DNA of 64,000 nt from Vibrio tritonius. Lineage in GTDB: Bacteria > Pseudomonadota > Gammaproteobacteria > Enterobacterales > Vibrionaceae. The notes under the pieces are model-generated. The model was not told the origin of the DNA, searched no databases, and was given only the letters and a program-made list of their open reading frames with translations. Of this stretch, positions 39,946 through 64,000 are shown in pieces; position 1 is the first letter of the stretch; the number at the start of each line of letters is the position of its first letter. The position numbers and the translations under genes were made by a program. Where the stretch lies: assembly GCF_001547935.1 (NCBI RefSeq), contig NZ_AP014636.1:310001-374000 (forward strand), read 5' to 3'.

Positions 39946-40170
39946 ATGTTGAATGCACTATCTACAAAATTTTATTTAAATGTGGTTTCATTCTTTAAAG
40001 ATCAACGTGGTGTTACTGCGATTGAATATGCAATTATCGGTGTGGCTATGTCGGCGATTGTACTATCAGTATTTAATTCTGGTTTATCAACTGCACTAAA
40101 TGGCGCTATGTCTTCTATTGATGCAAATATTAGCAGTGCTGGTTCATCGTCTGGTGCTTCAGGCAGCTAA
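39946..40170 (+). CDS. flp: Flp type IVb pilin (locus A, first copy)
   Basis: This 74-residue prepilin has a 22-residue leader ending DQRG, followed by the Flp processing motif VTAIEYAIIGVAMSAIVL. TadV should cleave after Gly22, giving a ~52-residue mature pilin with a hydrophobic N-terminal helix and a Ser/Gly-rich tail. Flp pilins are the major subunit of Tad pili used for surface adherence. The ATG at 39946 has GAAGGT before it. A close paralogue lies 67 bases downstream. Confidence 0.95.
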   Translation: MLNALSTKFYLNVVSFFKDQRGVTAIEYAIIGVAMSAIVLSVFNSGLSTALNGAMSSIDANISSAGSSSGASGS

Positions 40171-40237
40171 TTAAACTTTACATTAAAGATTTTAAACAGT
40201 TAACGAATTTTAAATTAATATTTATAGGTAATTGATC

Positions 40238-40462
40238 ATGTTGAATACTCTATCTACGAAACTATACGTTAAAGTGTCTACTTTTCTTAAAGACCAACGC
40301 GGTGTTACAGCAATTGAATACGCTATTATTGGCGTCGCAATGTCAGCCATCGTTCTTGCAGTGTTTAATTCCGGTCTATCAGATTCATTAAACAGCGCTA
40401 TGTCTTCTATCGATGCTAACATCAGCAGCGCTGGCTCAACGTCAGGTGCATCAGGTAGCTAA
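40238..40462 (+). CDS. flp: Flp type IVb pilin (locus A, second copy)
   Basis: This 74-residue prepilin is nearly the same as the preceding one: same Gly22/VTAIEYA cleavage site, same mature length and the same tail MSSIDANISSAGSxSGASGS. Differences cluster in the leader and at a few mature positions (LSV/LAV, STALNG/SDSLNS). It is a tandem duplicate, as in Aggregatibacter flp-1/flp-2. The ATG at 40238 has AGGT upstream. Confidence 0.94.
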   Translation: MLNTLSTKLYVKVSTFLKDQRGVTAIEYAIIGVAMSAIVLAVFNSGLSDSLNSAMSSIDANISSAGSTSGASGS

Positions 40463-40484
40463 TTAGTCTAAAGACTCAGTTGTT

Positions 40485-40940
40485 ATGCAACTAGTGTTTA
40501 CTCAACAAGGACTATGCCTGGCGGTACTAGTCCTTGTTTTTTTTAAAATCATCGTAAGTGATATTCGCTATCGGCTTATAAAAAACTGCGACGTAATCAT
40601 AGTATTGATACTAGTATTACTATTACGTCGAAATGACATGGAGACGGCGATTGTAATGCAAGCAGTCTATGTACTTATAGGCGGCTTTATTATCGTTAGT
40701 CTAGGTATATGTGGCGCCGGAGATATAAAACTCTTTGCTGTCATAGCCTTAGGGATTGACCCTGCTTGGTTTATGCTTACGCTCAACTTAATGCTGTGGT
40801 TGGGTGGGGCTTTAGCTGTAGTGATGTGGCTTAGGAATAGGTTAAGGCATCCGGACCGTAGAAAGTTAGTCACGATTCCTTACGCAATTCCTATCGTTGT
40901 CAGCTCTAGTGTAGGCATAGGTTTGAGTATGCTTACCTAG
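40485..40940 (+). CDS. tadV: Prepilin peptidase TadV/CpaA (locus A)
   Basis: This 151-residue inner-membrane aspartyl protease of family A24 has only the catalytic membrane domain. The two expected catalytic aspartates are Asp26 in VSDIRYRLI and Asp80 in CGAGDIKLF. It matures Flp and the TadE/TadF pseudopilins. It follows the second flp by 22 bases. The ribosome site is weak, so some coupling with flp is likely. Confidence 0.93.
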   Translation: MQLVFTQQGLCLAVLVLVFFKIIVSDIRYRLIKNCDVIIVLILVLLLRRNDMETAIVMQAVYVLIGGFIIVSLGICGAGDIKLFAVIALGIDPAWFMLTLNLMLWLGGALAVVMWLRNRLRHPDRRKLVTIPYAIPIVVSSSVGIGLSMLT

Positions 40941-40968
40941 ACGATGTATCTATCGGTTAGGTAATGAC

Positions 40969-41760
40969 ATGAATATTAAGCTAATGATCGCCATCGCCGT
41001 TATCGCAATAGGGGTGGGGGTCTATGGGATTAATCATAAGAAAATCATTCCACCAGAAGCTCCTCCTAAAGTAGTAAAAAAGGAGAGGCTGGTTTCTGTA
41101 TTGATTGCGAAAAGCGACATTATTCGTGGTGAGTTGTTAACAAGGGATAACACTAAATTTGAAAAATGGCCAGAAGCTGAAGCGGACAGAAAAGGCGTCC
41201 AAGAGGATATGGTTATTGATTTCAAGCAAGCTCCAATTGCGACAACAGATTTTGTCAAGGGAGAGCTGATTGTTAAAAGGCAGTTTATCACTGAAAATGA
41301 TATCAATTATATCGATTTCATCATTAAACCTAATAAAGTTCCGTTTCCTATTGAAGTTGAAGCAGATTCCATCGTGGGTGGAGTGGTTTTAACTTATGGC
41401 TACGTTGATATTTTAGCGTTGGCATCAAACTCCCAAAATTTAGCTAACGATAGCTCTATTAAAAATTTTAAAGATGTTTCTTTAACACCTGTTTTAACCA
41501 ATATCCGAGTGCTGAAAATAACTCATGACAATAAAGTGATTAAAGATAAAGACTCTGCACGGGTTAAAACTACTTTAATTTTAGAACTGAGTACCAAGCA
41601 GGTAGCGACGTTAAGTATTGCAAGACGTATTTCTAAACTAGAAGTCCATAAATCCATAAAAAATGCCAGCTATGAAGAATTATCTGCGAATGCGGGTGAT
41701 GTATTGGAATCGTATCATGCGATTAAAGAATTTCGCGCTAGCAGCATTTCAGTGAAATAG
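40969..41760 (+). CDS. rcpC: Pilus assembly protein RcpC/CpaB (locus A)
   Basis: This 263-residue protein has one N-terminal membrane/signal segment (about residues 3-21). A SAF-type domain follows (LIAKSDIIRGELLTRDNTKFEKWP, residues ~43-66), then the conserved IVGGVVLTYGYVDILALAS region. RcpC/CpaB works in the periplasm with the RcpA secretin. The gene order after tadV is that of canonical tad loci. Confidence 0.92.
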   Translation: MNIKLMIAIAVIAIGVGVYGINHKKIIPPEAPPKVVKKERLVSVLIAKSDIIRGELLTRDNTKFEKWPEAEADRKGVQEDMVIDFKQAPIATTDFVKGELIVKRQFITENDINYIDFIIKPNKVPFPIEVEADSIVGGVVLTYGYVDILALASNSQNLANDSSIKNFKDVSLTPVLTNIRVLKITHDNKVIKDKDSARVKTTLILELSTKQVATLSIARRISKLEVHKSIKNASYEELSANAGDVLESYHAIKEFRASSISVK

Positions 41761-41776
41761 GCAGTAAGGGCCAATT

Positions 41777-43087
41777 ATGTATCGAGCTTTTTATAACCTA
41801 ATAATATTATTAATATTTTCATCATTATCACTGTCTTCGTATGCTGCTCCAATTTTGAACTTAAATAAAGATGAAGCGAAAACGATTCAGCTAGATGTGG
41901 ACATGAGTTCCGTTTTCATCTCTAACCCTAATATTGCTGACTACTCAACGATTGGTAAAAAAACGCTAGTAGTTTACGGAAAGTCTGTCGGATCTGCTTC
42001 TCTGATTATTTTCGATAGTGATGGCAAAACCGTTTATTCACGCACAGTTACCGTTAACACCAATCTGTTGAGTTTAAAACAGTATGTGAGTGCACGGTTT
42101 CCTGATTTGAGCATCGAGATCTCTCATATCGGAGATCATATTGTGCTTGAAGGATTGGTTGCAACTGAACAGCAAAAAATGGATGTAGAAGCCTTAGTCG
42201 GTGAAATATTGGGGAAATCCTTTAATGAATTAACCGTAACGCTTGAAGGAAGAGGAAAGCCCTTTCATAAAGAAAAAACCTATCAAGGTATCTTAAACAA
42301 CTTAAAAGTAGCTGTGACCAAACAAGTCAATGTGAAGCTTACGGTGGCGGAAGTATCCCAATCATTTGTCGAAAATTTGGGTGTACGACTTTTTTCTGAT
42401 GGGGAGGGGTTCGGCACGATTACCAACTCCATTGTTGGATTCAGTGCCTCTGATATCGTGGCGATCATCAATGCGGTCCAGGATAACTCGGTTGGTCAAG
42501 TTCTCGCTGAACCGAATATTTCGGTTATTTCTGGTGAAAGCGCAAGTTTTCTGGTTGGAGGCGAGTTGCCAGTTGTGACGGTCATTGATGGCAGTACTAG
42601 TGTTACTTATAAAGAATATGGCATTAAGCTCGATCTTGCTGCAAACGTGCTAAAAGATGACAAAATTAAGTTGGCTATTGTGCCTGAAGTTAGCTCTCTG
42701 GATAGCCAATACCGCAACGAAACTTATGATTTACCAGCGTTGAAAACACGTAAAGCATCAACCGTTGTGGAATTGGGTGATGGTCAAAGCTTTGTCTTAG
42801 CTGGATTGCTCAATAACGAAGAAGTTGAATCCTTCTCAAAGATCCCGTTTATTGCTGATGTTCCCATTTTGGGCGCACTTTTCCGTTATTCACAAACTGA
42901 ACGTAAGAAAACTGAATTGGTGATTGTGGCAACCGTTAGTCTGGTTAAGCCAATTGAAAGTCGTGACGTTCGTTTACCTGTTTTCCGCCAAACAACCACT
43001 TTAGAGCGTCTTTTTGACTTTTCACAAGAAGGTGAAGATCAACAGGAGACTCAGGAATGGCTTGAAGAAGGAGGATTTATCCAATGA
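41777..43087 (+). CDS. rcpA: Outer membrane secretin RcpA/CpaC (locus A)
   Basis: This 436-residue protein has a signal peptide (ending SLSSYAAP). The N-terminal pilus-secretin domain includes VFISNPNIADYSTIGKKTLVVYG, a BON-like domain covers about residues 95-150, and the C-terminal secretin domain has LAEPNISVISGESASFLVGGELPV and FIADVPILGALFR. It forms the outer-membrane channel for the Flp pilus. Its stop overlaps the rcpB start (ATGA), so the two are translationally coupled. Confidence 0.94.
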   Translation: MYRAFYNLIILLIFSSLSLSSYAAPILNLNKDEAKTIQLDVDMSSVFISNPNIADYSTIGKKTLVVYGKSVGSASLIIFDSDGKTVYSRTVTVNTNLLSLKQYVSARFPDLSIEISHIGDHIVLEGLVATEQQKMDVEALVGEILGKSFNELTVTLEGRGKPFHKEKTYQGILNNLKVAVTKQVNVKLTVAEVSQSFVENLGVRLFSDGEGFGTITNSIVGFSASDIVAIINAVQDNSVGQVLAEPNISVISGESASFLVGGELPVVTVIDGSTSVTYKEYGIKLDLAANVLKDDKIKLAIVPEVSSLDSQYRNETYDLPALKTRKASTVVELGDGQSFVLAGLLNNEEVESFSKIPFIADVPILGALFRYSQTERKKTELVIVATVSLVKPIESRDVRLPVFRQTTTLERLFDFSQEGEDQQETQEWLEEGGFIQ

Positions 43088-43575
43088 ATTTAAGCAAATA
43101 CCTTCTTATTGGCTTTTTAATGTCACTATTAGCTGGCTGTGAAGTCGTTCATCCAAATAGGGGAGTGCAGATTGAGCTTTACCCTGTGACTAATCAGTTA
43201 ACGTTAAACATTTCCAATGTAAAAGAAGCCAAGAGTTCAGTACATAACTTTCTCAAACAGCACCAAAAAGATCTGTTTACCGCGACTTTTAATATTACTT
43301 ATAAGACGGCACATGCTCGCAAGTTGGCGTTGAGAACTCGCTCAGATTTGATAAAGCGCGGCGTAGACCCATCAGCCGTGATTGTTCTGAAAGAATCTAA
43401 CCAGGAAATGCAATTTGTTTTACAAATGGTCACGGTGTTGATGAAGAATTCGCCTTGCCCAGATATTTCGTATCGTTCATATAACTCAAATAAGAATAAG
43501 TATGGATGCACAGTTGAAACTAACAGATGGAAGTCAATGGTGCACCCTGAACGTGCTGCTGGACTGGTGAAATAG
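43084..43575 (+). CDS. rcpB: Pilus lipoprotein RcpB/CpaD-like (locus A)
   Basis: This 163-residue lipoprotein has a lipobox LLAGC (Cys near residue 19). The C-terminal pattern is C...YGCTVETNRWKSMVHPER, recalling the CpaD signature of a GC pair followed by N-x-x-x-M-x-x-P. The position after the secretin is that of rcpB. It likely assists secretin assembly or gating in the outer membrane. The start overlaps the rcpA stop. Confidence 0.85.
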   Translation: MNLSKYLLIGFLMSLLAGCEVVHPNRGVQIELYPVTNQLTLNISNVKEAKSSVHNFLKQHQKDLFTATFNITYKTAHARKLALRTRSDLIKRGVDPSAVIVLKESNQEMQFVLQMVTVLMKNSPCPDISYRSYNSNKNKYGCTVETNRWKSMVHPERAAGLVK

Positions 43576-43586
43576 GAGTAACGGCA

Positions 43587-44819
43587 ATGTTTGAGCTTAC
43601 GAGTATTCTCAAGTCAGGTAAAAACCAAGACAATCATAACGATCAAATTAAAACGGTTTTGTTCTATCAAACAAAGCAATGCAAGAGTTTGTTTGAAGAA
43701 TCATTTCGTTTTGAAGGCATAACAGTGCCTATCGCTATCGAAAACAAAGACGACAATATTATTGAGCACGTCAAAAACAAATCAGCAGAAATTATCATCA
43801 TTGAGCTAAACAAGTCGAAAAACTTAGTGGCCGATGCTGAGCGTATTTCTCATTTGATTCCGACCGAATCCGCTGTGGTTATCGTTGGCGGCGAAGATGC
43901 CATGTCCACCATGCGAGGTTTGAAAAAGCTGGGCTTTTATTACCTATTTTGGCCAGCAACCAAATCGGAACTGGTGGAATTTGTTAATAGTATTTATGAC
44001 GAAAGAGAACGTCCTTTTAGTGTGAGTAAGGGACGCAAAGCGAAGCGTATTTCTATTGTTGGTGCAAAAGGTGGGGTGGGAACAACCATGGTCACTGCTG
44101 AGTTATCCTGTTTATTGGCAGAAACTCGTCACTCTTCCTCTATTATTGTTGACCATAACTACAACAGCGGAAACCTAGATATCATGCTTGGTATCAATAA
44201 GTTTGAAAAGAAGAAGGTTCAAAAAGGAGCCTTATCTGACAATCTTGATGTATCAAGTTCGCGCAGCTTATTGGTGAAGAAGAGCAATTTACTTTCCATA
44301 TTAAGTATCTCTGCTGAAGAATTTAGCTACGGTGAAATGGTTGATTATCGTCGTTCCATTATCAACGTCATGCGCTCTGAGTGTAACTTCATAGTTGAAG
44401 ATATTTCGGCGTCCACTGGGCAAGTATTCGACTTCAATAACGATTGGATGGAAAGCGATTGTATTGTTGTTATTACCAACGCAACGGTTTCGTCATTGCG
44501 CGATGCCGGTCGATTAAATTCGATCATTGAGGCAATGCCAACCACAGAGCGCCCTCGAGTCTTTATCGTGGTTAACCATACCATGCCGGAAAAATACGCC
44601 AGTGTTTCATCTGATGAAATTGAAAAGTTTCTCAAGAGGAAGGTAGATTTGGTCATCCCTTATATCAAGGACTTTTCCGATGTCATTTTGGATGGTAAGC
44701 GCTTGGCGGCAAGACGCCATCGTTCTGCAATGGTCCTTAACCAACTCTCATCTTTGGTGCTGGGTGAGGATATCAATGCGAAAAAATCGTTCTTCAAAAA
44801 AATAGTTTCGAAGGGTTAA
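43587..44819 (+). CDS. tadZ: Pilus localisation ATPase TadZ/CpaE (locus A)
   Basis: This 410-residue protein has an atypical receiver-like N-terminal domain (about residues 20-140, with VVIVGGEDAM and GFYYLFWPATKSEL). A ParA/MinD-type ATPase domain begins with the deviant Walker A KGGVGTT at residues 161-167. The usual second lysine is replaced, as in other TadZ/CpaE. It marks the cell site where the Tad secretion machine assembles. tadA follows after 4 bases. Confidence 0.92.
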   Translation: MFELTSILKSGKNQDNHNDQIKTVLFYQTKQCKSLFEESFRFEGITVPIAIENKDDNIIEHVKNKSAEIIIIELNKSKNLVADAERISHLIPTESAVVIVGGEDAMSTMRGLKKLGFYYLFWPATKSELVEFVNSIYDERERPFSVSKGRKAKRISIVGAKGGVGTTMVTAELSCLLAETRHSSSIIVDHNYNSGNLDIMLGINKFEKKKVQKGALSDNLDVSSSRSLLVKKSNLLSILSISAEEFSYGEMVDYRRSIINVMRSECNFIVEDISASTGQVFDFNNDWMESDCIVVITNATVSSLRDAGRLNSIIEAMPTTERPRVFIVVNHTMPEKYASVSSDEIEKFLKRKVDLVIPYIKDFSDVILDGKRLAARRHRSAMVLNQLSSLVLGEDINAKKSFFKKIVSKG

Positions 44820-44823
44820 TGTC

Positions 44824-46113
44824 ATGAGTGTGGCAAAGAATCTTTATGTCAAATTACGTCGTCAGATCTTTGATGCTTTAGATCCATCAGCGATTGCCGA
44901 TATTGCACGTTCACAACTCGAAGAAGAGCTTGAGAGCGCAATCAACTTATTGATCGATAAAGAGAGTGCTGCGGTTTCTAACTCGCTACGGAGAGAGTTT
45001 GTCAATGCGTTGGCAGATGAGCTGGTTGGCCTTGGTCCTTTGCAAAGACTCATGGATGATGACACGATTTCCGATATCATGATTAACGGGCCTGAAGCGA
45101 TCTTTATTGAACGCAATGGTTTGGTTGAAAAATCGAGTGTTACTTTTATCGATGAACCCCAATTGGTTGGTATTGCAAAACGTATTGCGAGCCGTGTTGG
45201 ACGACGTGTCGATGAATCTAGCCCCTTATGTGATGCACGTCTTCTAGACGGTAGCCGTGTCAATATTGTTATTCCTCCAATCGCTATCGATGGCACGTCG
45301 ATTTCCATTCGTAAGTTTAAAAAGCACAGCATCGATTTCGCAAAATTGTGCCAATTTGGTGCTATGAGTCCAGAGATGGCGCAACTCCTTATGGTTGCGG
45401 CTCGCTGTCGACTGAACATTCTTATCTCAGGTGGTACAGGTTCAGGTAAAACCACCATGCTCAATGCACTTTCTCAATTCATTTCTGAGAATGAACGTAT
45501 TGTGACTATTGAAGATGCTGCGGAATTGAAACTGCAACAGCCCCATGTCGTTCGTTTAGAAACGCGTGCAGCAGGGATAGAGAATACAGGTCAGATTAGC
45601 CAGCGAGAACTGGTAATCAACTCGCTACGTATGCGTCCTGACCGTATTATTGTCGGTGAGTGTCGTGGTGCAGAAGCGTTTGAAATGCTTCAGGCGATGA
45701 ATACGGGTCACGATGGCTCTATGTCCACATTGCACGCAAACACGCCTCGTGATGCGATGGCTCGTGTTGAATCAATGGTAATGATGGCAAATAACAACCT
45801 TCCACTAGAGGCGATAAGACGCACCATTGTTAGTGCGGTTGATTTGGTCATTCAGATCTCTCGTTTGCATGATGGTAGCCGTAAAGTTATGTCGATAACT
45901 GAAGTTGTTGGCCTTGAAGGTTCGAGCGTGGTTCTGGAGGAAATTTATCGTTTCCAACCTACCTATGAAAAAACGGCGGATGGGAAAGTCACAGGCCAAT
46001 TTGTTACGGCTGGTTTGATGCAACGGTCTGTTTTGGTTGAAAAAGCCAAATTCTTTGGCTTAGAAGAGAAGCTCATGAGCTCCTTTAAAAATACGGGAGG
46101 ACGTAATGAGTAG
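44824..46113 (+). CDS. tadA: Tad secretion ATPase TadA/CpaF (locus A)
   Basis: This 429-residue cytoplasmic hexameric ATPase powers Flp pilus assembly and retraction. Walker A is GGTGSGKTT at residues 203-211, Walker B DRIIVGECRG near 273-282, and the His-box is GSMSTLHANTPRDA near 298-311. The N-terminal helical domain is typical of CpaF. It is the best-conserved protein between the two loci. Its end overlaps tadB by 8 bases. Confidence 0.97.
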   Translation: MSVAKNLYVKLRRQIFDALDPSAIADIARSQLEEELESAINLLIDKESAAVSNSLRREFVNALADELVGLGPLQRLMDDDTISDIMINGPEAIFIERNGLVEKSSVTFIDEPQLVGIAKRIASRVGRRVDESSPLCDARLLDGSRVNIVIPPIAIDGTSISIRKFKKHSIDFAKLCQFGAMSPEMAQLLMVAARCRLNILISGGTGSGKTTMLNALSQFISENERIVTIEDAAELKLQQPHVVRLETRAAGIENTGQISQRELVINSLRMRPDRIIVGECRGAEAFEMLQAMNTGHDGSMSTLHANTPRDAMARVESMVMMANNNLPLEAIRRTIVSAVDLVIQISRLHDGSRKVMSITEVVGLEGSSVVLEEIYRFQPTYEKTADGKVTGQFVTAGLMQRSVLVEKAKFFGLEEKLMSSFKNTGGRNE

Positions 46114-47038
46114 CGACCTCTATTTTTTATTGCTTGGTGTGGTGATCATCATTGTTGCCTTGATCATTAACTACCGTACAAAAAAACGCCGTATGACCTA
46201 TTTGCGTGACTTCGACAGTAGCTTCGGCTCTACAACCGTTGTTAGTCAACACCAGGCCGTAGACATTCAGTCTCTTCTAGATCGAGGTTTTAAAGAAAGA
46301 GCGCTGCAAAATTGGCATAACTTTAAAAGTCAGCTAGGTAATATGCCTGAAGTGAAGCTGGTTTTAATTACCATAGTTCTACTCGCTATCTCAATATTGT
46401 TTAACCGTAACTTTTTGCGTGAGTCGCAGTTCCTTGTTACCCCTATCATATTGATTCTAGGTTACTTCTTTTTGTATCGCTGGTTGCAAAACCGAGAGAA
46501 GCAAAACTTTGAGTCTCAATTTCCTGATGCTTTGAATATGATGACCAGTGCCGTGTCGTCAGGGGACAGTATCATGCATGCAATTATGTATGTTGGTAAT
46601 CAGCTAGAAGGCGATGTGGGAAATGAATTTCGAATCATGGGGCAGCGCCTACAGTTAGGTGAGGATCCTGATGACGTGTTCCGCAAATCTTGCCATCGTT
46701 ACCCTTATCCGTCTTTTTATTTTTTTGTGATTACGCTGCGCGCTAATATTTCGCGAGGCGGACAGCTAAAAGACATTATTCAGCGTTTAAACCGAACGAT
46801 GTTTAATGCAAGGGCGATGGACAAGAAAAAGTTTGCGCTTACTTCTGAGGCTCGGTCTTCTGCAAAAATAGTGGCGGCAATACCCTTCTTCTTTCTCTTT
46901 ATGTTGCAATTTTTAAGCCCTGAGAACTACGAATACGTGATGTTTAATGAAGATGGAAAAGTCATTCTCTATTACGTGTTAGCAAGTGAGTTTATCGGCA
47001 TATCCATTGTTTGGGGTCTAATGCGAGGCGTTAGTTAG
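46106..47038 (+). CDS. tadB: Tad inner membrane platform protein TadB (locus A)
   Basis: This 310-residue T2SF-domain membrane protein has an N-terminal helix (about residues 3-23), two further helices near residues 90-130, and the GspF-like cytoplasmic domain with FPDALNMMTSAVSSGDSIMHAI. Terminal helices include AAIPFFFLFMLQFL. With TadC it forms the assembly platform for TadA. The start overlaps the tadA end; tadC follows after 8 bases. Confidence 0.94.
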   Translation: MSSDLYFLLLGVVIIIVALIINYRTKKRRMTYLRDFDSSFGSTTVVSQHQAVDIQSLLDRGFKERALQNWHNFKSQLGNMPEVKLVLITIVLLAISILFNRNFLRESQFLVTPIILILGYFFLYRWLQNREKQNFESQFPDALNMMTSAVSSGDSIMHAIMYVGNQLEGDVGNEFRIMGQRLQLGEDPDDVFRKSCHRYPYPSFYFFVITLRANISRGGQLKDIIQRLNRTMFNARAMDKKKFALTSEARSSAKIVAAIPFFFLFMLQFLSPENYEYVMFNEDGKVILYYVLASEFIGISIVWGLMRGVS

Positions 47039-51773: not shown

Positions 51774-51803
51774 AAAAAGGGAACCTGTCGGTTCCCTTTT
51801 TCT
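51774..51803 (+). terminator. Intrinsic terminator of tad locus A
   Basis: AAAAAGGGAACC and GGTTCCCTTTTT pair around TGTC, followed by CTAC. It lies 40 bases after the OmpA-like gene and shows that locus B is a separate transcription unit. Confidence 0.92.
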
Positions 51804-55385: not shown

Positions 55386-55867
55386 AAAATATGACTATAA
55401 TCGCGCTCTTCTCATTATTCTTAATGGCATGTAGCCAAGTAAGAGACCGTTCTGGTATTGAATTGGATCTTTATCCTATTACTGCTTCGTTATCAATGGA
55501 TGTTGGAAATGTAGTTCAAGCTAAACGCCAAGTTAACCAATTTATTATTGAGCATAAGCAAGAATTGCTGACAGACTCGATTGAATTATTTGCTAGTAAT
55601 AATAAGCAGCGTCAATTGGCTAAATATACTCGTCAAAAATTATTGGTTATTGGTGTATCTAAACAGCAAATATCGGTTAGTAATAGTACATCATCTGGTC
55701 TTTTTGAACTGCGTATGACCCAATTTCATGTGAAGAGCGGCAAGTGCCATTACGTGAACTACAACTCTTTAAATACTATGTCGGATGACCACGGTTGTAA
55801 TGTTGAAAGCAATCGCTGGACTTCTATGACCAATCCAGAACGTTCATTAGGTTCTATAGGTAAGTAA
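55382..55867 (+). CDS. rcpB: Pilus lipoprotein RcpB/CpaD-like (locus B)
   Basis: This 161-residue lipoprotein has a lipobox LMACS (Cys17). The C-terminal C...HGCNVESNRWTSMTNPER keeps the Cys pair and the NRWxSMxxPER motif of copy A, while the middle is poorly conserved. Position and overlap with rcpA match locus A. Confidence 0.85.
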   Translation: MKNMTIIALFSLFLMACSQVRDRSGIELDLYPITASLSMDVGNVVQAKRQVNQFIIEHKQELLTDSIELFASNNKQRQLAKYTRQKLLVIGVSKQQISVSNSTSSGLFELRMTQFHVKSGKCHYVNYNSLNTMSDDHGCNVESNRWTSMTNPERSLGSIGK

Positions 55868-55873: not shown

Positions 55874-57106
55874 ATGTTTAATTTAGTTGACACACTAAAG
55901 TCAAAACAAAAGCAAGAAGCGGAGCAGGAGCAGATTCAGACGGTTTTGTTTTATCAGACAGAGTCTTGTCAAAACCTTGTTCAAGAATCTTATCGTTTTG
56001 AAGGGATTGCCGAGCCGGCAACCCTTTTGAACAATGATGACGAAATTGCAGAGCACGTTCGATTACAAAGCGTCGAAATTGTTATTATCGAATTGAACGA
56101 TAGTAAGAATATTGCCAAAGATGCGGAGCGTATCAGTCACCTCTTGCCAAGCCATGCTTCTGTGATTGTTATTGGTAGTGAAGATGCTATTTCAACCATT
56201 CGTAACCTTAAGGCGCTAGGTTTTTATTACCTATTTTGGCCGATCACTAAGCAAGAACTGATTGATTTTGTTCGTAGTGTGCATGAAAACCGTGAACGCA
56301 ACCGTGGTCCTGGTCAAAACCGTCGAGCTAAGCGTGTATCGATCCTTGGAGCAAAGGGAGGAGTAGGAGCCACAGCCATTACGGCTGAGCTATCTTATCT
56401 GCTTTCTGAGGAAAAACATGCCTCTTGTGTCGTTGTAGACCATAACTACACGAGCGGTAATATCGATATTATGCTCGGTATTCAAAAGTTTGAAAAACGT
56501 CGTATGCAACGAGGTGCTTTTACCGAATTGCTGGACTTATCCAGTGCGCGTGGTTTGCTTTATAAGCAGAGTGAGTTACTTTCGGTATTAGGTTTAACCT
56601 CTAAAGAGTTTTCTCATGAAGAAATTGCTGAATATCACCGCTCAGTAATTAATGTCATGATGAGTGAATGTAACTTTATAATTGAAGATTTCTCGGCGTC
56701 ATCAGGCCAAGTCCATCTCGAAAAAAATAGTTGGCTAGACAGTGACTGTATTATTTTGGTGCTTTCTCCCACGGTATCATCATTGAGAGATGCCGGACGT
56801 CTCAAATTATTACTAGATAAGGTGCCGCTGTCCGAGCGTCCTCGAGTATTAGTCGTCGTTAACCATACTTGCCCAGAAAAATTTTCTACCGTGACCTTTT
56901 CTGAAATAGAGAAGTTTTTGGAAATTAAACCAGATGCCATCGTGCCTTTTATTTCTAACTTCGGTGAAGAAATTCTCAATGGCAAACGCTTAGCAAAATT
57001 GAATAATAAATCTTCGGTACCTATTCGAGCGCTAGCATCTTTAGTTGTGGGTGAAAAAACCATAGCTAAGTCATCTTGGTTAAATAAGTGGTTTAAAAAG
57101 GCCTAA
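55874..57106 (+). CDS. tadZ: Pilus localisation ATPase TadZ/CpaE (locus B)
   Basis: This 410-residue protein is the same length as copy A. It has the receiver-like N-domain (SVIVIGSEDAI; GFYYLFWPITKQEL) and the deviant Walker A KGGVGATA at residues 161-168. Divergence is concentrated in the C-terminal ATPase part and the inter-domain linker (NRGPGQNRR), which would allow the two machines to be placed at different sites. Confidence 0.92.
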   Translation: MFNLVDTLKSKQKQEAEQEQIQTVLFYQTESCQNLVQESYRFEGIAEPATLLNNDDEIAEHVRLQSVEIVIIELNDSKNIAKDAERISHLLPSHASVIVIGSEDAISTIRNLKALGFYYLFWPITKQELIDFVRSVHENRERNRGPGQNRRAKRVSILGAKGGVGATAITAELSYLLSEEKHASCVVVDHNYTSGNIDIMLGIQKFEKRRMQRGAFTELLDLSSARGLLYKQSELLSVLGLTSKEFSHEEIAEYHRSVINVMMSECNFIIEDFSASSGQVHLEKNSWLDSDCIILVLSPTVSSLRDAGRLKLLLDKVPLSERPRVLVVVNHTCPEKFSTVTFSEIEKFLEIKPDAIVPFISNFGEEILNGKRLAKLNNKSSVPIRALASLVVGEKTIAKSSWLNKWFKKA

Positions 57107-57111: not shown

Positions 57112-58395
57112 ATGATTGGAACTAAAGATCTTTACGTCAAACTACGTAAGCAAATATTTGATGCACTTGATCCGACAATGATCGGTAGCATCGAGCGGCC
57201 TCAATTGCAGTCACAGCTCGAAAGCGCTGTGAATCTTTTGCTGGAAAACGAAGATGTTCCAGTGTCTAACGTTGTTAGACACCAGTTTGTTGATAGTTTA
57301 ACCGATGAATTGGTCGGATTAGGGCCGCTACAACGTTTAATGGATGATGAATCGATCACCGATATTATGGTCAATGGTTCGGATGCGGTATTTATTGAGC
57401 GTAATGGTTTAGTCGAAAAAGCGCCGATCAGTTTTATTGATGAAAACCAACTGCTAGCGATTGCCAAGCGAATCGCTAGCCGCGTAGGTCGTCGAGTTGA
57501 TGAATCCAGTCCGACGTGTGATGCGCGCTTAGTTGATGGTAGTCGTGTTAATATCGTTATTCCGCCAATTTCTATTGATGGAACTTCGATATCAATTCGT
57601 AAGTTTAAAAAGCACAGTATTGATCTGCAAAAGCTATGTGAATTTGGCGCTATGAGCCCAGAAATGGCTCAATTACTGATGATCGCTGCGCGTTGCCGAC
57701 TCAATATTTTGATCTCTGGTGGTACAGGTTCTGGTAAAACGACCATGTTGAATGCGTTATCAGAGTATATTTCTGAGAAAGAACGCATTATTACCATAGA
57801 AGATGCTGCAGAGCTAAAAATGCAGCAGCCGCATGTTGTGCGTTTAGAAACTCGAACGGCAGGGATTGAAAATACTGGTTTGATCAACCAGCGTGACTTA
57901 GTGATCAACTCGTTGCGTATGCGTCCTGACCGCATCATTGTCGGCGAATGTCGTGGCCCAGAGGCATTTGAAATGCTCCAAGCCATGAACACGGGTCATG
58001 ATGGTTCGATGTCAACATTGCACGCCAATACTCCACGTGATGCAATGGCCCGTGTGGAATCTATGGTAATGATGGCGAATAATAACCTTCCTCTTGAGGC
58101 GATTCGTCGCACGATTGTGAGTGCAGTTGATTTGATCATCCAAATTTCTCGTTTGCATGATGGTTCGCGTAAGGTAATGAGCATTACGGAAGTCGTCGGT
58201 TTAGAAGGCAGTAACGTGGTAATGGAAGAGATATTTCGCTTTCAACCCTCTTACCAGGCGAGCGAGGATGGCAAGGTACGAGGCAATTTCATTACTGCGG
58301 GTTTGATGCAGCGTTCTGTGCTAGTTGAAAAAGCGAAGTTTTTTGGTCTAGAAGATCAACTGATGGCGGCTTTTAGAGCTGGAGAGCCGGCATGA
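57112..58395 (+). CDS. tadA: Tad secretion ATPase TadA/CpaF (locus B)
   Basis: This 427-residue ATPase has Walker A GGTGSGKTT, Walker B DRIIVGECRGPE and the STLHANTPRDA box, all as in copy A. Most of the catalytic half is the same sequence in both loci, so the motors could in principle be exchanged. The stop overlaps the tadB start (ATGA). Confidence 0.97.
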   Translation: MIGTKDLYVKLRKQIFDALDPTMIGSIERPQLQSQLESAVNLLLENEDVPVSNVVRHQFVDSLTDELVGLGPLQRLMDDESITDIMVNGSDAVFIERNGLVEKAPISFIDENQLLAIAKRIASRVGRRVDESSPTCDARLVDGSRVNIVIPPISIDGTSISIRKFKKHSIDLQKLCEFGAMSPEMAQLLMIAARCRLNILISGGTGSGKTTMLNALSEYISEKERIITIEDAAELKMQQPHVVRLETRTAGIENTGLINQRDLVINSLRMRPDRIIVGECRGPEAFEMLQAMNTGHDGSMSTLHANTPRDAMARVESMVMMANNNLPLEAIRRTIVSAVDLIIQISRLHDGSRKVMSITEVVGLEGSNVVMEEIFRFQPSYQASEDGKVRGNFITAGLMQRSVLVEKAKFFGLEDQLMAAFRAGEPA

Positions 58396-59324
58396 TTATT
58401 TATCTTCTTATTATGCTACTAGGTGTCGGAACTATTATCTATGTTGTGCTCAACCAACGTAAATTGCATCGTTCACGTCACTCCTATCTTAATGAATTTA
58501 ATAAGACAGAGTTTGTTCATTCTCTAGTAACCAACCAACAAGCGGTTGACCTTGCATCTCTTTTAGAACGCTCGTTTTCTGAAAGCGTGAAACAACGTTG
58601 GGAGAACTTTAAAAAGCAACTCGGAGCGAAACCTGAGCTTAAACTATTGCTGGTATTTGCAGGGCTGTTCTTTGGTGCGATTATTTTTAACCGTACCTAT
58701 CTTCGTGCAGATAACACGTTATTTGTGCCGATTTTTATGTTGTTAGGCTTTGTTTTCTTCTACCGTTGGATGCAAAACCGTGAACGTAAGTTATTTGAAG
58801 AGCAGTTTCCTGATGCACTCAATATGATGACCAGTGCCGTTTCTTCCGGTGAAAGTATTATGCATGCGATCTTGTATGTTGGCGATAAACTCGAAGGTGA
58901 TATTGGTAAAGAGTTCAACCTAATGGGGCGAAGATTACAACTTGGAGAAACACCTGATGAGGTTTTTCGTAAGTCGTGTCGGCGTTATCCATACCCGTCT
59001 TTTTATTTCTTTGTTATCACGCTACGAGCCAATATGCAGCGAGGCGGGCAATTAAAGGAAATTATGCATCGTTTAAACCGAACGATGTTTAATGCTAGAG
59101 CGGTCGAAAAGAAAAAATTCGCTTTGACCTCAGAAGCTCGTACCTCTGCAAAAATTGTTGCTGCTATACCATTTATTTTTCTATTTATGCTGCAATTCTT
59201 GAATCCTGAAAACTATGAATTCGTCATGTTCAATGCTTCTGGTCGAGTCATTCTTTATTACGTCATTATTAGCGAAGCGATTGGTATTGGCATCGTTTGG
59301 TCATTAATGAAGAGCGTTAAGTAG
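58392..59324 (+). CDS. tadB: Tad inner membrane platform protein TadB (locus B)
   Basis: This 310-residue T2SF membrane protein is the same length as copy A. It has FPDALNMMTSAVSSGESIMHAI and RYPYPSFYFFVITLRANMQRGG shared nearly unchanged. The N-terminal membrane helix and following linker are the variable parts. tadC follows after 6 bases. Confidence 0.95.
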   Translation: MIIYLLIMLLGVGTIIYVVLNQRKLHRSRHSYLNEFNKTEFVHSLVTNQQAVDLASLLERSFSESVKQRWENFKKQLGAKPELKLLLVFAGLFFGAIIFNRTYLRADNTLFVPIFMLLGFVFFYRWMQNRERKLFEEQFPDALNMMTSAVSSGESIMHAILYVGDKLEGDIGKEFNLMGRRLQLGETPDEVFRKSCRRYPYPSFYFFVITLRANMQRGGQLKEIMHRLNRTMFNARAVEKKKFALTSEARTSAKIVAAIPFIFLFMLQFLNPENYEFVMFNASGRVILYYVIISEAIGIGIVWSLMKSVK

Positions 59325-59330: not shown

Positions 59331-60200
59331 ATGAATATAACGATGGTTTTATCTTTTTTACTGCTAAGTTTTGGGATTGGCTCATTATTGTTTGTGGTGG
59401 GTAAGAGTCGTCGACAAAAAAAGCTGACTCGCTTTAATCTCGACATTCCTCAACATGACGATAATGAATTAGCCAAAGTTGCAGATTTTTTTGACCGAGT
59501 ATTTTCTAATAGCCAAGAAGAAATAGAGAAAAAATTTTTAGCCGCAGGGATTTATGACACATCTTGGGCTAAATATTATTCTGTAGTGAAATATGGTCTG
59601 TTGTTATTGGGTGTAGCATTCGTTGCTGCTGGCTACTACTGGTTTGATTTTACCCAAAAACAGATCATTATGATTCTAGGTATTTGGGTCTTAGTGTTGC
59701 TACTCGGTCCTGATATGTATATGGCAAAACGTAAGAAAGAACTCCAGAAAGTGATTTCTGCAAAGATGCCCTACATGCTAGATCTGCTGGCGGTTTGTGT
59801 CCAAACCGGTATGACGATAGAAGCTGCTGTTAGCTACTTGTCCTTAGAGTTTGGTGCTTTCGACAAAGATTTAAGTCATATGTTGAAGAAAGTGGATGAA
59901 CGTGCACGTCTTGTAGGATTAGAGCAAGCGCTATCTGAATTATATGAACGTATCCCGAGTAACGAAATTCGCAGTTTTGTTATGACGCTTAACCAAAGTT
60001 TGCAATATGGTTCCTCTATCTATTCCGTATTAACAACGTTAAGCGCTGATATTCGCGAAGTCCAACTGCTTCATGTGGAAGAAAAAATAGGTCAGTTGTC
60101 CTCAAAGATGTCTATTCCACTCATCATTTTTATTATGGTTCCAATCGTGATTTTAATTGCCGGGCCTGGGATCATGAGGTTAATGCAAAATGGTCTATAA
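59331..60200 (+). CDS. tadC: Tad inner membrane platform protein TadC (locus B)
   Basis: This 289-residue T2SF membrane protein has MPYMLDLLAVCVQTGMTIEAAVSYL, SNEIRSFVMTLNQSLQYGSSIY and a C-terminal helix, all closely matching copy A. The tail is three residues longer and overlaps tadD by 11 bases. Confidence 0.94.
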   Translation: MNITMVLSFLLLSFGIGSLLFVVGKSRRQKKLTRFNLDIPQHDDNELAKVADFFDRVFSNSQEEIEKKFLAAGIYDTSWAKYYSVVKYGLLLLGVAFVAAGYYWFDFTQKQIIMILGIWVLVLLLGPDMYMAKRKKELQKVISAKMPYMLDLLAVCVQTGMTIEAAVSYLSLEFGAFDKDLSHMLKKVDERARLVGLEQALSELYERIPSNEIRSFVMTLNQSLQYGSSIYSVLTTLSADIREVQLLHVEEKIGQLSSKMSIPLIIFIMVPIVILIAGPGIMRLMQNGL

Positions 60201-60987
60201 ATTAACATCTTACCTTTTTTTAGCTCTGGTTTTGTCTGGGTGTACTTCTTTGCAAGACAAAGGGACTCATCTCTCGGATGAGACCAACGAGAAAGTGTTT
60301 ATTAGCACTGGGAACTACCCCAAGTTGATTGAGTTCTATAAAAAACAACTCAAAGATGATGAAGATAGTAAAACGCGAATAAAGCTCGTGAATGCTTATG
60401 AACGGGTTAACGATTATTCCTCGGCCATTTTTTATCTTGAACCGCTATTAGATGAAGCGAGTAAGGCAACGGTTGAGGTTAATATTCTTGCTGGTCGTGC
60501 ATATCTTAATCAGGGAGACTTTCAGCAAGCCAAACGCTATTTGGAACGAGCCAACAAGCAAGAAGCCAGTAATGCAGAGGTGATGAATTTACTTGGTGTA
60601 CTGGCAAGCTACCAAGGTGATTTTCCTACCGCTAAAAAATGGTTCTTGGCGTCGCGTACAGCCATGGGGGATGACAAAAAGGTGAAAAATAACCTTGCCC
60701 TTATTGCCATGCTTGAAGGGGATTTTGCAACGGCAAAGTACCTTCTAATTCAGCTTGTTGAAGACAAAAGTGCCCCCCAGAAGAAAGTGCGTTCTAATCT
60801 AGCGTTGGTGTATGCCAAGCTAGGAGACAAAGCGGCTTTTAATGACTTGATTCGACAATCCGATAGAATAAAAAAAGATGAGTTATTTGCTCAATTGCAG
60901 CAGGTTCAGCTGGTGAATATGAGCTCTCTATTGTCCAATTCCACTTTAGATAATGGTGATACTAATGAAACGCCACTATCGAAATAA
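60190..60987 (+). CDS. tadD: TPR lipoprotein TadD (locus B)
   Basis: This 265-residue lipoprotein has a lipobox VLSGC (Cys near residue 18). TPR-like repeats lie at about residues 88-165 (LAGRAYLNQGDFQQAKRYLERANKQEASNAEVMNLLG). It overlaps tadC and tadE, as in locus A. Confidence 0.92.
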   Translation: MVYKLTSYLFLALVLSGCTSLQDKGTHLSDETNEKVFISTGNYPKLIEFYKKQLKDDEDSKTRIKLVNAYERVNDYSSAIFYLEPLLDEASKATVEVNILAGRAYLNQGDFQQAKRYLERANKQEASNAEVMNLLGVLASYQGDFPTAKKWFLASRTAMGDDKKVKNNLALIAMLEGDFATAKYLLIQLVEDKSAPQKKVRSNLALVYAKLGDKAAFNDLIRQSDRIKKDELFAQLQQVQLVNMSSLLSNSTLDNGDTNETPLSK

Positions 60988-61501
60988 GTCTATCAAAAAA
61001 CAAAAAGGCGTTGCGGCAATTGAATTTGCGATGGGCTTTTTCTTTTTTTGGTTAATGTGCGCCGCTTGGGTCGAGATGAGTTTTCTATCTTATGTGTCTG
61101 CTATTGGTGATTTAGCCATTTCACAAGTTGCGTTACACAGTAAGAGAGTTTCTTCTGAATGGTCGAGTGCTAATGATGTCTTTTTGGCTGATTTTGAATC
61201 TGTGATAGATAAAAGTGACAGTTTATGGCGCTATGTCGTTGATTCCGATGATTTTAGTTACAGCATTCGTTACGTTGCAAGTTATGAAAGATTAGTTGAT
61301 GAAGATGATACATGTGAAGTGACGGATACCAGTGAATCGAATAGCACTACCTGCGGTGATGCATCAAATGCGGCTATCGCTATTTATCGTCTTCAATATG
61401 ATGCAAAACCTATTTTTAATTATTTTCTCGATAGTAACACTCTGTTTTCTCGTGAAGCCATAGTCATCCAGGAATATCAACGTGAAAAATTCGAACTGTA
61501 G
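60965..61501 (+). CDS. tadE: Pseudopilin TadE (locus B)
   Basis: This 178-residue protein begins MKRHYRNKSIKKQKG and has the processing site KG/VAAIEFAMGFFFFWLMCA. The periplasmic part has a Cys pair (DTCEVTDTSESNSTTCGDA) as in copy A, and is longer by a few Ser/Thr residues. The ATG at 60965 is preferred over one four codons upstream, but the ribosome site is weak; it is probably coupled to tadD, which it overlaps by 23 bases. Confidence 0.88.
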   Translation: MKRHYRNKSIKKQKGVAAIEFAMGFFFFWLMCAAWVEMSFLSYVSAIGDLAISQVALHSKRVSSEWSSANDVFLADFESVIDKSDSLWRYVVDSDDFSYSIRYVASYERLVDEDDTCEVTDTSESNSTTCGDASNAAIAIYRLQYDAKPIFNYFLDSNTLFSREAIVIQEYQREKFEL

Positions 61502-62036
61502 TAAAAGCAAAGGTAACTTTACGGTGGAGTTTGCCATTGTTGGTGTATTCTTTGCGTTATTACTGGTATTTAGTGGTGACATTATTATAAAACTCAGTAT
61601 TAAAGGGAAATTAGAGCGACTCTCTTATTCAATCGTTAATATTGTAAAAGAGCGTACCCAGTTATTTGGTGAGGACGAATATAGTATCGATGATACGGAA
61701 GCAGAGAATGCTTATACCATTACCGTTGACTCACTAAAAAGGACCATGTCAAGTTTTGATGAAAGCAAATTTGGCTTTGTTTTAGATGCATACACAAGAA
61801 CTAATTATGGTACTGGCGATGGGATAGATAGCCTAGGTTCATGGTCTCAGGAAGGCAGTAATATTTCTTGTCAATCATCTAAGCCAGACAAAGAACTTAT
61901 TTTCCAAACCTCTTGGGGGCGGTCAGCTACCTTTTATCAGGTGACACTATGTTATGCATCACCCAATTGGTTTGGTTCTGTTATGGGCGGTGATTATTCG
62001 AAGATATCAGTACGCTCTGCAGCGGTAGGACGATAA
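61482..62036 (+). CDS. tadF: Pseudopilin TadF (locus B)
   Basis: This 184-residue protein has the processing motif SKGNFTVEFAIVGVFFALLLVF and a periplasmic part ending LIFQTSWGRSATFYQVTLCYASPNWFG, nearly as in copy A. The central part (residues ~75-140) is diverged. The start overlaps the tadE stop by 20 bases. GTG start. Confidence 0.9.
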   Translation: MKNSNCSKSKGNFTVEFAIVGVFFALLLVFSGDIIIKLSIKGKLERLSYSIVNIVKERTQLFGEDEYSIDDTEAENAYTITVDSLKRTMSSFDESKFGFVLDAYTRTNYGTGDGIDSLGSWSQEGSNISCQSSKPDKELIFQTSWGRSATFYQVTLCYASPNWFGSVMGGDYSKISVRSAAVGR

Positions 62037-62037
62037 C

Positions 62038-63498
62038 ATGATAAGTCATCGCAATAAGCAATCAGGACATGCAGCAATACTTTTTGCCATGATGATCCCG
62101 CTATTATTTGGCGTTTTTATTTTTGGTACTGATGGGGCAAGAGCATTACAAGCCAAAGCTCGTTTAGAAGAGGCCTCTGAAGCCGCGGTGCTAGCCGTAG
62201 CGGGGCAAAGTGGATCAACTCAGGCTGCTCATGATGAAATGGCGACCAATTACATTCAATACTATTTCCCATTTGCTGAGATGGAAGATATCACTACCGA
62301 AGATATCCCATGCTCTGAAAATTCAGCCTGCAATACCAAGGATGATGCAGTTAATCGCTTTTATGAGTATACCGTTTCTGCAACCATAGCTGAGCCGAAT
62401 TGGTTTTCTAAGGATACTATATCAACCAGTTTTGGCGATTCTACCGATGTTGGTGGTTATTCATCTGCACGTAAATATCAGTCGCAAACGGTCGATATTA
62501 TCTTAGTATCGGATTTTTCATCCTCGATGTTACAAAGTACAGGCACTAGTGTAAATTCCAAAGTGACGGATTTAAAATCGATAATTTCAGATGTTGCTGA
62601 TACGATTAACGAATACAACGAACATACTGGAACACAAAAAAACACCATGGCGTTTGTTGGTTTTGGATATTATACCTATGGTGAGTACTCAACAAGTATT
62701 AGTAAAAATGGTTCTACATATAGTGGGTTTCCCTATTACACCTATCTCATGTGCACTGGAGCGAAAAATAGCTCACATCCTGCTAATGATGGTTGGTGCG
62801 GAGCTTCATCGAACGATTTAGGAAATATTGATTATTTACAGTCTGTAAGCGCGGCAAATATTTTCGATGAAAGTGCCTACTTACCTACGAATATTATTCA
62901 ATTGAAATATAGTATTACTGATGCAACATATGAAACATTAAAGCCCGAAAATAACAATAATGTAAAATCAGAGGCATATAAGATGTTTACAGAAGAATCA
63001 TACAGTGGTTATCATCATTTTAGATATTACAACTTGGGTTTAACATCAGATGTTTCTGAGCTTAGTGACACCATTAATGATTTTTATCCTCAAGGTTCAA
63101 CGGCATTTTATACAGGCTTGATTAGAGGGGCTCAAATTGCAAATAAAGGAACTAATTCACGACGTTTAATTATCATTTTGTCGGATGGTAATAATACACA
63201 TGAAGATGTTACAACGAAGTTAGTTTCTGATGGTCTCTGTGACAATATTACAGATACACTGAATACCCAAACCACGACTGTTACCGACAGTGAAGGTCAT
63301 GAGGTTGAAGAATCGGTTAAGTCTCGAATATTTGCAATCGGATTTGGATATCAAGCGAGTCAGAACCCTGGCATGACAAATTGTGTTGGAACGAATAACG
63401 TTTATGACTCAAATGATAGTGATGAGATCAAAGACAAAATTTTGGAATTAATTGCAGAAGAGATGGGGCGGTTAACGCCATCAGATGAGACAAATTAG
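62038..63498 (+). CDS. tadG: VWA-domain pilus protein TadG (locus B)
   Basis: This 486-residue protein has the N-terminal SGHAAILFAMMIPLLFGVFIFGTDGARAL and a VWA domain with MIDAS DFSSS at residues 159-163, followed by GSTAFYTGLIRGA and IILSDGNN. It is 41 residues longer than copy A. The difference lies in a wholly dissimilar Tyr/Ser/Asn-rich loop (around residues 210-330) and a second small insert near 430. This is the most diverged large protein between the loci and a good candidate for the adhesin that gives each pilus its target. Confidence 0.9.
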   Translation: MISHRNKQSGHAAILFAMMIPLLFGVFIFGTDGARALQAKARLEEASEAAVLAVAGQSGSTQAAHDEMATNYIQYYFPFAEMEDITTEDIPCSENSACNTKDDAVNRFYEYTVSATIAEPNWFSKDTISTSFGDSTDVGGYSSARKYQSQTVDIILVSDFSSSMLQSTGTSVNSKVTDLKSIISDVADTINEYNEHTGTQKNTMAFVGFGYYTYGEYSTSISKNGSTYSGFPYYTYLMCTGAKNSSHPANDGWCGASSNDLGNIDYLQSVSAANIFDESAYLPTNIIQLKYSITDATYETLKPENNNNVKSEAYKMFTEESYSGYHHFRYYNLGLTSDVSELSDTINDFYPQGSTAFYTGLIRGAQIANKGTNSRRLIIILSDGNNTHEDVTTKLVSDGLCDNITDTLNTQTTTVTDSEGHEVEESVKSRIFAIGFGYQASQNPGMTNCVGTNNVYDSNDSDEIKDKILELIAEEMGRLTPSDETN

Positions 63499-63507
63499 GA
63501 TAATTTT

Positions 63508-64000
63508 ATGAAAAAACAATTAATAATTTCTTTGGTGGCAAGTGTTATTTCTGCAAGCTGTTTGGCCCAAGAGTCTGATTTGTATTCTTATTTGTGCAAT
63601 AAGGATGGCAATACGCAGGGTTATCAAATGACGGGTGGCACGGCAAAAAAATTGGTGATGTACCCTGGCGATAGTTTACAAACGGCAGCAATAACCGCAA
63701 ACCCAGATCAAGATTGGCTACTTAGCCAAGTGAAACCTGATCAAGTGCCAACGGATTGCTTGAGTTACTTTTTGAGTCAAGGTTATTGGCAAAAAGGTCA
63801 GAGTATCGCTCGTTTCCATTTTGAGTTTAACAGCAAGTCATTGTCTGGTGTTGATAAGGCGATTCTTACTCGTTTAGTGACTACATTGGCGCATACACCT
63901 AACGTATCCGTTGTTGGTCATACAGACTCAATCGGCTCAGGTGCTTATAACCAAAGCTTGGGTGAAAAACGTGCACAATCTGTGGTTAAACTTGTATCGA
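63508..64000 (+). CDS. OmpA-family protein closing tad locus B (partial, C-terminus beyond window)
   Basis: About 164 residues are visible. A signal peptide (MKKQLIISLVASVISASCLA) is followed by the N-domain YSYLCNKDGNTQGYQMTGG, the PDQVPTDCLSYFLSQGYWQKG segment and the start of the OmpA domain (VSVVGHTDSIGSGAYNQSLG). It matches the 51107-51733 protein domain by domain. AGGA lies 8 bases before the ATG. The peptidoglycan-binding C-terminus is outside the window. Confidence 0.88.
   Translation, partial: MKKQLIISLVASVISASCLAQESDLYSYLCNKDGNTQGYQMTGGTAKKLVMYPGDSLQTAAITANPDQDWLLSQVKPDQVPTDCLSYFLSQGYWQKGQSIARFHFEFNSKSLSGVDKAILTRLVTTLAHTPNVSVVGHTDSIGSGAYNQSLGEKRAQSVVKLVS

Follow-up and report, generated by a model that had tools for sequence, protein, structure and literature searches.

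The window analysed here, a stretch of 64,000 nucleotides from Vibrio tritonius (G000:C2:310001-374000, in a genome of two contigs and 5.22 Mb), contains two complete tad/Flp pilus loci lying head to tail on one strand, locus A (39946-51733) and locus B (52498-64128), the last part of B, with the end of its ompA-like gene at 64128, falling past the window end. Open reading frames and pairwise alignment disclose a direct tandem with an offset of ~12.3 kb and similar start/stop overlaps, and an annotation-free direct-repeat search recovers the same pair with an A-to-B spacing of 12,260-12,401, all three approaches confirming the arrangement proposed in the original prediction. Both loci display the order flp-tadV-rcpC-rcpA-rcpB-tadZ-tadA-tadB-tadC-tadD-tadE-tadF-tadG-ompA, as had been claimed; the claimed count of 14 genes holds for B, which has one flp, and not for A, which comprises 15 genes with an extra flp (Table 1). 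A third tad locus of the same genome is distant (C2:1217763), its TadA being 52% identical.

In Tad/Flp (type IVc) systems, TadV cuts the Flp prepilins, which TadA assembles together with TadB and TadC, placed by TadZ, and which exit via the RcpA secretin, with TadE, TadF and TadG as minor or tip parts. By gene content, A and B are canonical, complete machineries of this type. Flp, TadV, RcpC, RcpA, TadA, TadB, TadC, TadD, TadF and OmpA score above the curated Pfam cut-offs in both loci, TadZ in A only and TadG in B only; RcpB and TadE of both loci, B TadZ and A TadG give sub-threshold Pfam matches or none, and are named by position and homology to other tad loci. The matches comprise (i) Flp_Fap for all three flp products, each with a GVTAIEY motif (GxxxxEY processing site); (ii) Peptidase_A24, the TadV prepilin peptidase, in A and B; (iii) T2SSE for the TadA motor ATPases, the best NCBIfam model for A TadA being TIGR03819 (TadA family) at 333.5 bits, under its cut-off of 373; (iv) T2SSF for all four proteins of the paired TadB and TadC platform; and (v) Secretin and RcpC in both loci. 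Catalytic and processing motifs are intact in both copies, and the reading frames are open throughout.

Table 1. Features of the two tandem tad/Flp loci, in window coordinates.
Feature	Position	Strand	Evidence
Leader of locus A, 840 bp	39106..39945	+	77% alike over 615 bp to same place in G123
A flp1 (Flp pilin)	39946..40170	+	Pfam Flp_Fap 1.6e-13; GVTAIEY processing motif
A flp2 (Flp pilin)	40238..40462	+	Pfam Flp_Fap 9.1e-14; 84% identical to flp1 (pairwise alignment)
A tadV (prepilin peptidase)	40485..40940	+	Pfam Peptidase_A24 1e-9; GxGD motif
Hairpin + T-tract 3' of flp, within start of A tadV	40504..40538	+	-19.5 kcal/mol (42-nt window); -23.7 (86 nt)
A rcpC/cpaB	40969..41760	+	Pfam RcpC; NCBIfam TIGR03177 above cut-off
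A rcpA (secretin)	41777..43087	+	Pfam Secretin 1e-38
A rcpB	43084..43575	+	Position, homology; CpaD match below cut-off
A tadZ	43587..44819	+	Pfam CbiA 1.1e-7
A tadA (motor ATPase)	44824..46113	+	Pfam T2SSE 3.1e-62; Walker A
A tadB (platform)	46106..47038	+	Pfam T2SSF 3.2e-16
A tadC (platform)	47047..47907	+	Pfam T2SSF 3.5e-14
A tadD (TPR lipoprotein)	47907..48695	+	Pfam TPR_19 1.2e-8
A tadE (minor pilin)	48682..49206	+	Position, homology; Pfam below cut-off only
A tadF (minor pilin)	49184..49747	+	Pfam TadF 1.9e-38
A tadG (von Willebrand A-like)	49751..51088	+	Homology; DxSxS motif; Pfam below cut-off only
A ompA-like gene	51107..51733	+	Pfam OmpA 5.6e-15
Terminator between A and B	51774..51801	+	12-bp stem, -16.9 kcal/mol, z -4.4
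Leader of locus B	51802..52497	+	80% alike over 689 bp to G123
B flp (Flp pilin)	52498..52716	+	Pfam Flp_Fap 1.1e-10
B tadV (prepilin peptidase)	52729..53181	+	Pfam Peptidase_A24 6.9e-10
Hairpin 3' of flp, within start of B tadV	52745..52773	+	Terminator-like; -14.0 kcal/mol; stem AAGGACT/AGTCCTT common to A
B rcpC/cpaB	53210..53995	+	Pfam RcpC, SAF
B rcpA (secretin)	54006..55385	+	Pfam Secretin 4.3e-40; best solved relative RcpA 8odn, 6.4e-41
B rcpB	55382..55867	+	Position, homology
B tadZ	55874..57106	+	55% to A; ParA-like Pfam matches below cut-off
B tadA (motor ATPase)	57112..58395	+	Pfam T2SSE 8.3e-63
B tadB (platform)	58392..59324	+	Pfam T2SSF 5.6e-17
B tadC (platform)	59331..60200	+	Pfam T2SSF 4.2e-14
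B tadD (TPR lipoprotein)	60190..60987	+	Pfam TPR_19 2e-11
B tadE (minor pilin)	60953..61501	+	52% to A; Pfam below cut-off only
B tadF (minor pilin)	61482..62036	+	Pfam TadF 1e-44
B tadG (von Willebrand A-like)	62038..63498	+	Pfam Tad 2.4e-5; VWA 0.0016, below cut-off
B ompA-like gene, continues to 64128 outside window	63508..64000	+	Pfam OmpA 1.1e-8

The relationship between the two copies was examined with 61 tad loci, comprising (i) A and B, (ii) their counterparts in two other species, G123 and G103, (iii) four more tandem pairs, (iv) 42 single or dispersed loci of the genus, and (v) five named records. Thirteen genes, flp being left out, were treed with FastTree from 56-61 loci each, and a concatenated IQ-TREE analysis used 25 rows, which represent 24 distinct loci (L038 and G261 are the same record; G273 is partial). 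The A and B types, together with a locus of genome G110, form one clade in 13/13 gene trees (support 0.917-1.0), and the A loci of G000, G123 and G103 form a clade in all 13 as well (0.568-1.0); in the concatenated tree the A, B and A+B clades all have 100/100 support, and the other-genus loci fall outside. Since A and B are sisters in all 13 treed genes, the pair is, on the evidence of these trees, a segmental (tandem) duplication and not the capture of two loci, which decides for duplication between the two origins that the original prediction had left side by side. The same prediction held that sister copies of uniform divergence would point to a recent duplication; the sister relationship is present in every treed gene, and the uniform divergence is absent, with 31-81% identity between the copies.

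Tandem tad pairs recur across the genus. A tadA search of 227 genus genomes at E 1e-80 gave a match in 197, of which 196 were re-searched for positions and read by eye, G000 being added. Two tadA genes on one strand, separated by less than 16 kb, are present in 7/197 (G000, G005, G066, G089, G103, G123 and G162), a count that may be low, as fragmented assemblies could conceal more. The seven genomes represent four tree lineages, G000/G123/G103 (including the single locus of G110), G162/G005, G066 and G089, and in each lineage the two copies are sister clades; among the dispersed tadA pairs on the tree (G050, G182, G192), 0/3 are sisters. A family-wide tadA search of 329 genomes gave no further close pair among the matches listed.

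Some tad loci do seem to move. The distant genome G110 (50.6-53.8% alike in FadJ to the 12 other genomes in the comparison) has a single B-type locus at another site (G110:C1:1684037), likely the outcome of horizontal transfer, and in seven genomes (G022, G030, G086, G087, G088, G195 and G221, read by eye and left off the tree) two tadA genes lie 17-23 kb apart on one strand, their query identities of 63-68% vs 49-59% making them look like neighbours of different origin. Both observations are in line with an origin of A and B as two related loci captured side by side via separate horizontal transfers, an origin that is contradicted for this pair by the 13 concordant gene trees, which reject it, and by the contrast between the sister pairs of the three other tandem lineages and the dispersed pairs; we consider it highly improbable. 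As to mobile carriage, a viral-contig scan yielded one locus with merely a 16-residue match, and 253 plasmid records had a tadA match at E 1e-100, none of them above 80%, the best of 20 rows being 73% in Photobacterium damselae.

Both A and B have counterparts at the corresponding site of the other two species, G123 and G103, which share with G000 an aldehyde dehydrogenase gene upstream (Pfam) and metal ABC transporter genes downstream (named by eye). Between G000 and G103, TadA of A is 87.5% identical, that of B 86.9% and that of the unlinked third tad locus 87.4%, and because these values are similar the duplication is most simply older than the split of the G000/G123 lineage from the G103 lineage, as judged from protein identity; on the tree, G000 and G103 are separated by a distance of 0.65 in A and 0.73 in B. 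The view that this is not a recent redundant copy is thus upheld, both copies also appearing selectively maintained (see below). The array order is A-B in G000 and G123 and B-A in G103, which indicates that the array was rearranged or pruned; the opposite orders would arise most simply if an ancestral array of three or more copies had lost different members in different lineages, or if another duplication had been followed by a deletion. An error in the G103 assembly could also give the B-A order, but is unlikely, because the two copies of G103 are clearly different in protein (TadA 82%, RcpB 37%) and lie inside one 1.8-Mb contig. The 20-kb stretches of G139, G001 and G224 contain the transporter genes and no tad genes, and the upstream dehydrogenase was found at E 1e-220 in G000, G103 and G123 only, of 227 genomes, a threshold that the G103 copy barely passes and that diverged orthologues would escape; neither these stretches nor the dehydrogenase search demonstrated a true empty site.

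Both copies appear intact, and the ratio of nonsynonymous to synonymous divergence (dN/dS) between G000 and G123 points to purifying selection on each, being low in both: 0.02-0.18 in 13/13 genes of B, and 0.02-0.22 in the 8/13 genes of A with computable dS, five being not computable. Decay of one member of a tandem pair may happen, as in G066, where the tadC and tadG frames are fragmented in one copy (G066_2) by decay or sequencing error, and a comparable fate for A or B, one of them being a redundant relic on its way to loss and devoid of its own function, would be the corresponding explanation here. The open frames of both copies, their low dN/dS and their retention, most simply, since before the G103 split speak against it, and we regard it as improbable.

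The comparison of G000 with G123 discloses, in addition, a mosaic of divergence, with synonymous divergence (pS) dropping at the A/B border from high values to low ones (window 7195-51733 vs 52729-68522). Values are mostly 0.5-0.8 between 7.2 and 51.7 kb, including A, with the exception of A tadV (0.26), and 0.1-0.46 in B and onward to 83 kb, with the exception of B tadD (0.66); no counterpart of 68.5-79.4 kb was found in the G123 stretch. At the nucleotide level, A is 78.7% identical to its G123 counterpart, B 89.4% and the third locus 93.7%, and a 10-kb stretch of chromosome 1 gives 86.4%; the last two values serve as the baseline, since a control stretch from chromosome 2 aligned to G123 in fragments only. 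The probable cause is replacement of the A side by a diverged allele in one of the species, or else an exchange of the B side. The A flp copies, two in G000 and three in G123, are alike within a species and differ between species, a pattern that suggests concerted evolution or separate pilin gene duplications.

Each copy is preceded by its own leader. For either copy the G000 and G123 leaders are alike, the A and B leaders are unrelated, and a comparison of the A leader with the A/B intergenic region gave no match at E 0.01. Rfam returned two matches far below gathering scores upstream of A and none up to E 1 upstream of B. The terminator that had been predicted at about 51774 is real (Table 1), and a terminator-like hairpin (-22.7 kcal/mol) follows B ompA beyond the window. 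Separate expression of A and B is most likely, because the copies have leaders of their own and A is closed by a terminator ahead of B; two separate pili, presumably functioning in attachment, are likewise most likely.

The explanation that we favour, and hold with good though not full confidence, is that an ancestral ~12-kb tad/Flp (type IVc) locus was duplicated head to tail before the G000/G123 lineage parted from that of G103, and that the two copies stayed together at a single site of the chromosome. Each would encode a full machine, comprising Flp, TadV, the TadA motor, the TadB/TadC platform and TadZ, as well as the RcpA secretin with RcpB, RcpC and TadD, the minor pilins TadE and TadF, TadG and the OmpA-like protein, and the two machines, expressed separately, would form two distinct adhesive Tad pili with partly overlapping roles. 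A precedent is found in Vibrio vulnificus, in which lethality was lowered only by deleting all three tad loci, and the triple deletion was complemented in part by each single locus (PMC6748444).

Several observations weigh against this explanation. (i) In the gene trees, the B types with G110 form a clade in 10/13 cases (support 0.165-0.959), the tadV, tadA and tadF trees conflicting with it at weak nodes (0.03-0.6), and in 68/459 tests on 60-column windows the paralogue is closer than the orthologue; some gene conversion between the copies may have taken place. (ii) Several of the A dS values are near saturation, up to 3.2. (iii) The G103 leaders match neither G000 leader beyond a dispersed repeat. 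(iv) Between G000 and G103, B lags in TadC (62.7% vs 70.2% for A and 73.9% for the third locus) and in TadD (48.4% vs 61.4% for both A and the third locus), which leaves room for the B-like copy of G103 to be a third paralogue, B', rather than B. (v) FadJ is only 61% identical between G000 and G103, as to other species, and this single species-tree marker is too divergent to fix the place of G103. (vi) In the tandem pairs of G162 and G005, flp and rcpC of the upstream locus are only 204-221 bp apart, which leaves no room for tadV; that locus probably uses the peptidase of its neighbour or another one, so neighbouring tad loci may share parts.

Such borrowing favours a different explanation, in which A and B would constitute one cooperative pilus system requiring parts of both loci together, and transformation in Micrococcus luteus does require both of its distant tad clusters (PMC4322843). 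In the present pair, each copy holds all 14 gene types, the A-type genes group in 13/13 trees, indicating that the sets stay together, and the leaders are unrelated, so that cooperation appears unlikely, if less so than relic or capture. A more tentative extension of the duplication history, which we put forward as a possibility somewhat short of even, is a turnover array with an ancestral B'-A-B order (at least three loci), in which an older copy would have left the orphan TadG gene beyond B, lineage-specific pruning would have given A-B in G000 and G123 and B'-A in G103, and B' would have moved between the G103 lineage and G110. A search of 11 gap stretches of three genomes for remnants of other tad genes gave, among its best 30 matches, two that are an upstream extension of the flp reading frame and one weak tadV match (45 residues, E 8e-4). 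If the turnover array is true, Vibrio would regularly renew its pilus repertoire by repeatedly duplicating an entire 12-kb machine in tandem and losing copies again.

The divergence between the two copies is uneven, amino-acid identity being 81% for TadA, 64% for TadB, 60% for RcpA, 57-58% for Flp, 56% for TadF, 55% for TadZ, 53% for TadC, 52% for TadE, 50% for TadG, 48% for RcpC, 39% for TadD, 34% for TadV and 31% for RcpB, with 48% for the part of OmpA inside the window in B. The motor and platform had been described as near-constant, a description that fits TadA and not TadB or TadC. The profile was compared with pairs of tad loci from different genomes, namely (i) 627 pairs with a matched TadA identity of 76-86% and (ii) 261 pairs matched on mean identity, the control pairs having loci in common and hence not being independent. 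Against the mean of the 627 pairs, the per-gene profile gives a Spearman correlation of 0.95, with A/B at or above the mean in 12/13 genes and RcpA slightly lower (z -0.22, the lowest gene); against the 261 pairs the correlation is 0.96, with RcpA (z -1.61) and OmpA (z 1.94) as extremes. Mean conservation is highest for TadA in either control set, with TadV and RcpB ranking among the lowest. The A/B profile is therefore the generic tad profile and uninformative on specialisation, and the proposal that uneven conservation reveals two machines kept for different surfaces is rejected, the same gene ranking being found between tad loci of different genomes. Specialisation of A and B for different surfaces is possible, and uneven conservation along a tad locus should not be taken as evidence of it.

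A hairpin with a T-tract after flp, mostly within the tadV start, passes a strict stem-plus-T test in 18/61 loci, compared with 16/61 after ompA and, for each of 12 other gene starts, 0-2 of 59-61 loci. None of the seven A/B-clade loci passes this test (0/7), A and B displaying bulged or weaker-tailed forms, and the stem sequences vary across tad loci. A less specific energy scan finds structures at or below -12 kcal/mol at tadV in 32/56 loci and at other starts in 9 to 31 of 59-61, a moderate enrichment only. If the hairpin stops part of the transcription, pilin mRNA would be abundant and the mRNA for the machinery scarcer. Kram and colleagues reportedly described, in 2008, a termination cascade in the tad locus of Aggregatibacter actinomycetemcomitans.

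Beyond the window, after B and its terminator-like hairpin, lies an extra TadG-like gene (64351-65712; L051:1351-2712) encoding 453 amino acids with a DxSxS motif and with VWA_2 and Tad matches just above the Pfam cut-offs. Its product lies outside the A+B clade on the TadG tree (A+B support 0.884), the gene is also present in G123, and G103 has no room for it at that place; a search of PDB sequences had no match up to E 0.1. The gene may be what remains of a third locus, or may encode a spare tip protein. It is followed by a dispersed hairpin element (about 65735-66000; L051:2735-3000), whose 114-bp cores recur, at least 94% alike, at a minimum of 40 genomic sites, scoring having covered 40 of the 134 candidates. 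Together with the terminator that comes after it, the stretch has a folding energy of -122 kcal/mol (z -10.8); it has no Rfam match at gathering score and resembles a miniature inverted-repeat transposable element (MITE); partial copies occur in the window near 10994-11260, 18760, 26228 and 37247, and the element also lies between the two tad loci of G103.

The new points are the recurrent whole-locus duplication, the order swap, the extra TadG gene and the flp/tadV hairpin, and the recurrent duplication and swapped order make the locus worth specialist attention. No description of back-to-back tad loci in Vibrio was found in the open-access literature searched, including PMC6668835, PMC5913241, PMC4322843, PMC6748444, PMC3767616 and PMC7494200, which is weak evidence of absence. 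Whole-locus tandem duplication is a visible source of extra tad loci here; it is seen in four lineages of a single genus, the copies having been retained for long and their order having changed once, and adjacent sister machines in one cell offer a natural system for testing the interchangeability of Tad components and the divergence of duplicated nanomachines.

Compared to the tad/Flp type IVc locus of A. actinomycetemcomitans, A and B are alike in components, the Pfam basis shared by both copies being pilin, peptidase, secretin, ATPase, platform pair, RcpC, TadD, TadF and OmpA; G000 is set apart, on the family description, by two head-to-tail copies, an OmpA-like gene closing each and two flp genes in A. 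Several tad loci per genome are common in Vibrio (PMC5913241), and V. vulnificus carries three (tad-1, tad-2 and tad-3/iam; PMC5913241, PMC6748444), as does G000 with A, B and the locus at C2:1217763. By their published description, the V. vulnificus loci are distinct, with 31-56% homology in the best genes (PMC5913241), whereas two of the three loci in G000 are adjacent sisters with TadA at 81%. The closest parallels are the other tandem pairs of the genus (G162/G005, G066, G089), likewise whole-locus, with tadA genes 12.0-15.2 kb apart on one strand and sister copies; unlike A and B, G162 and G005 are without one tadV and G066 has broken frames, and on the tree these pairs represent duplications separate from that of A and B.

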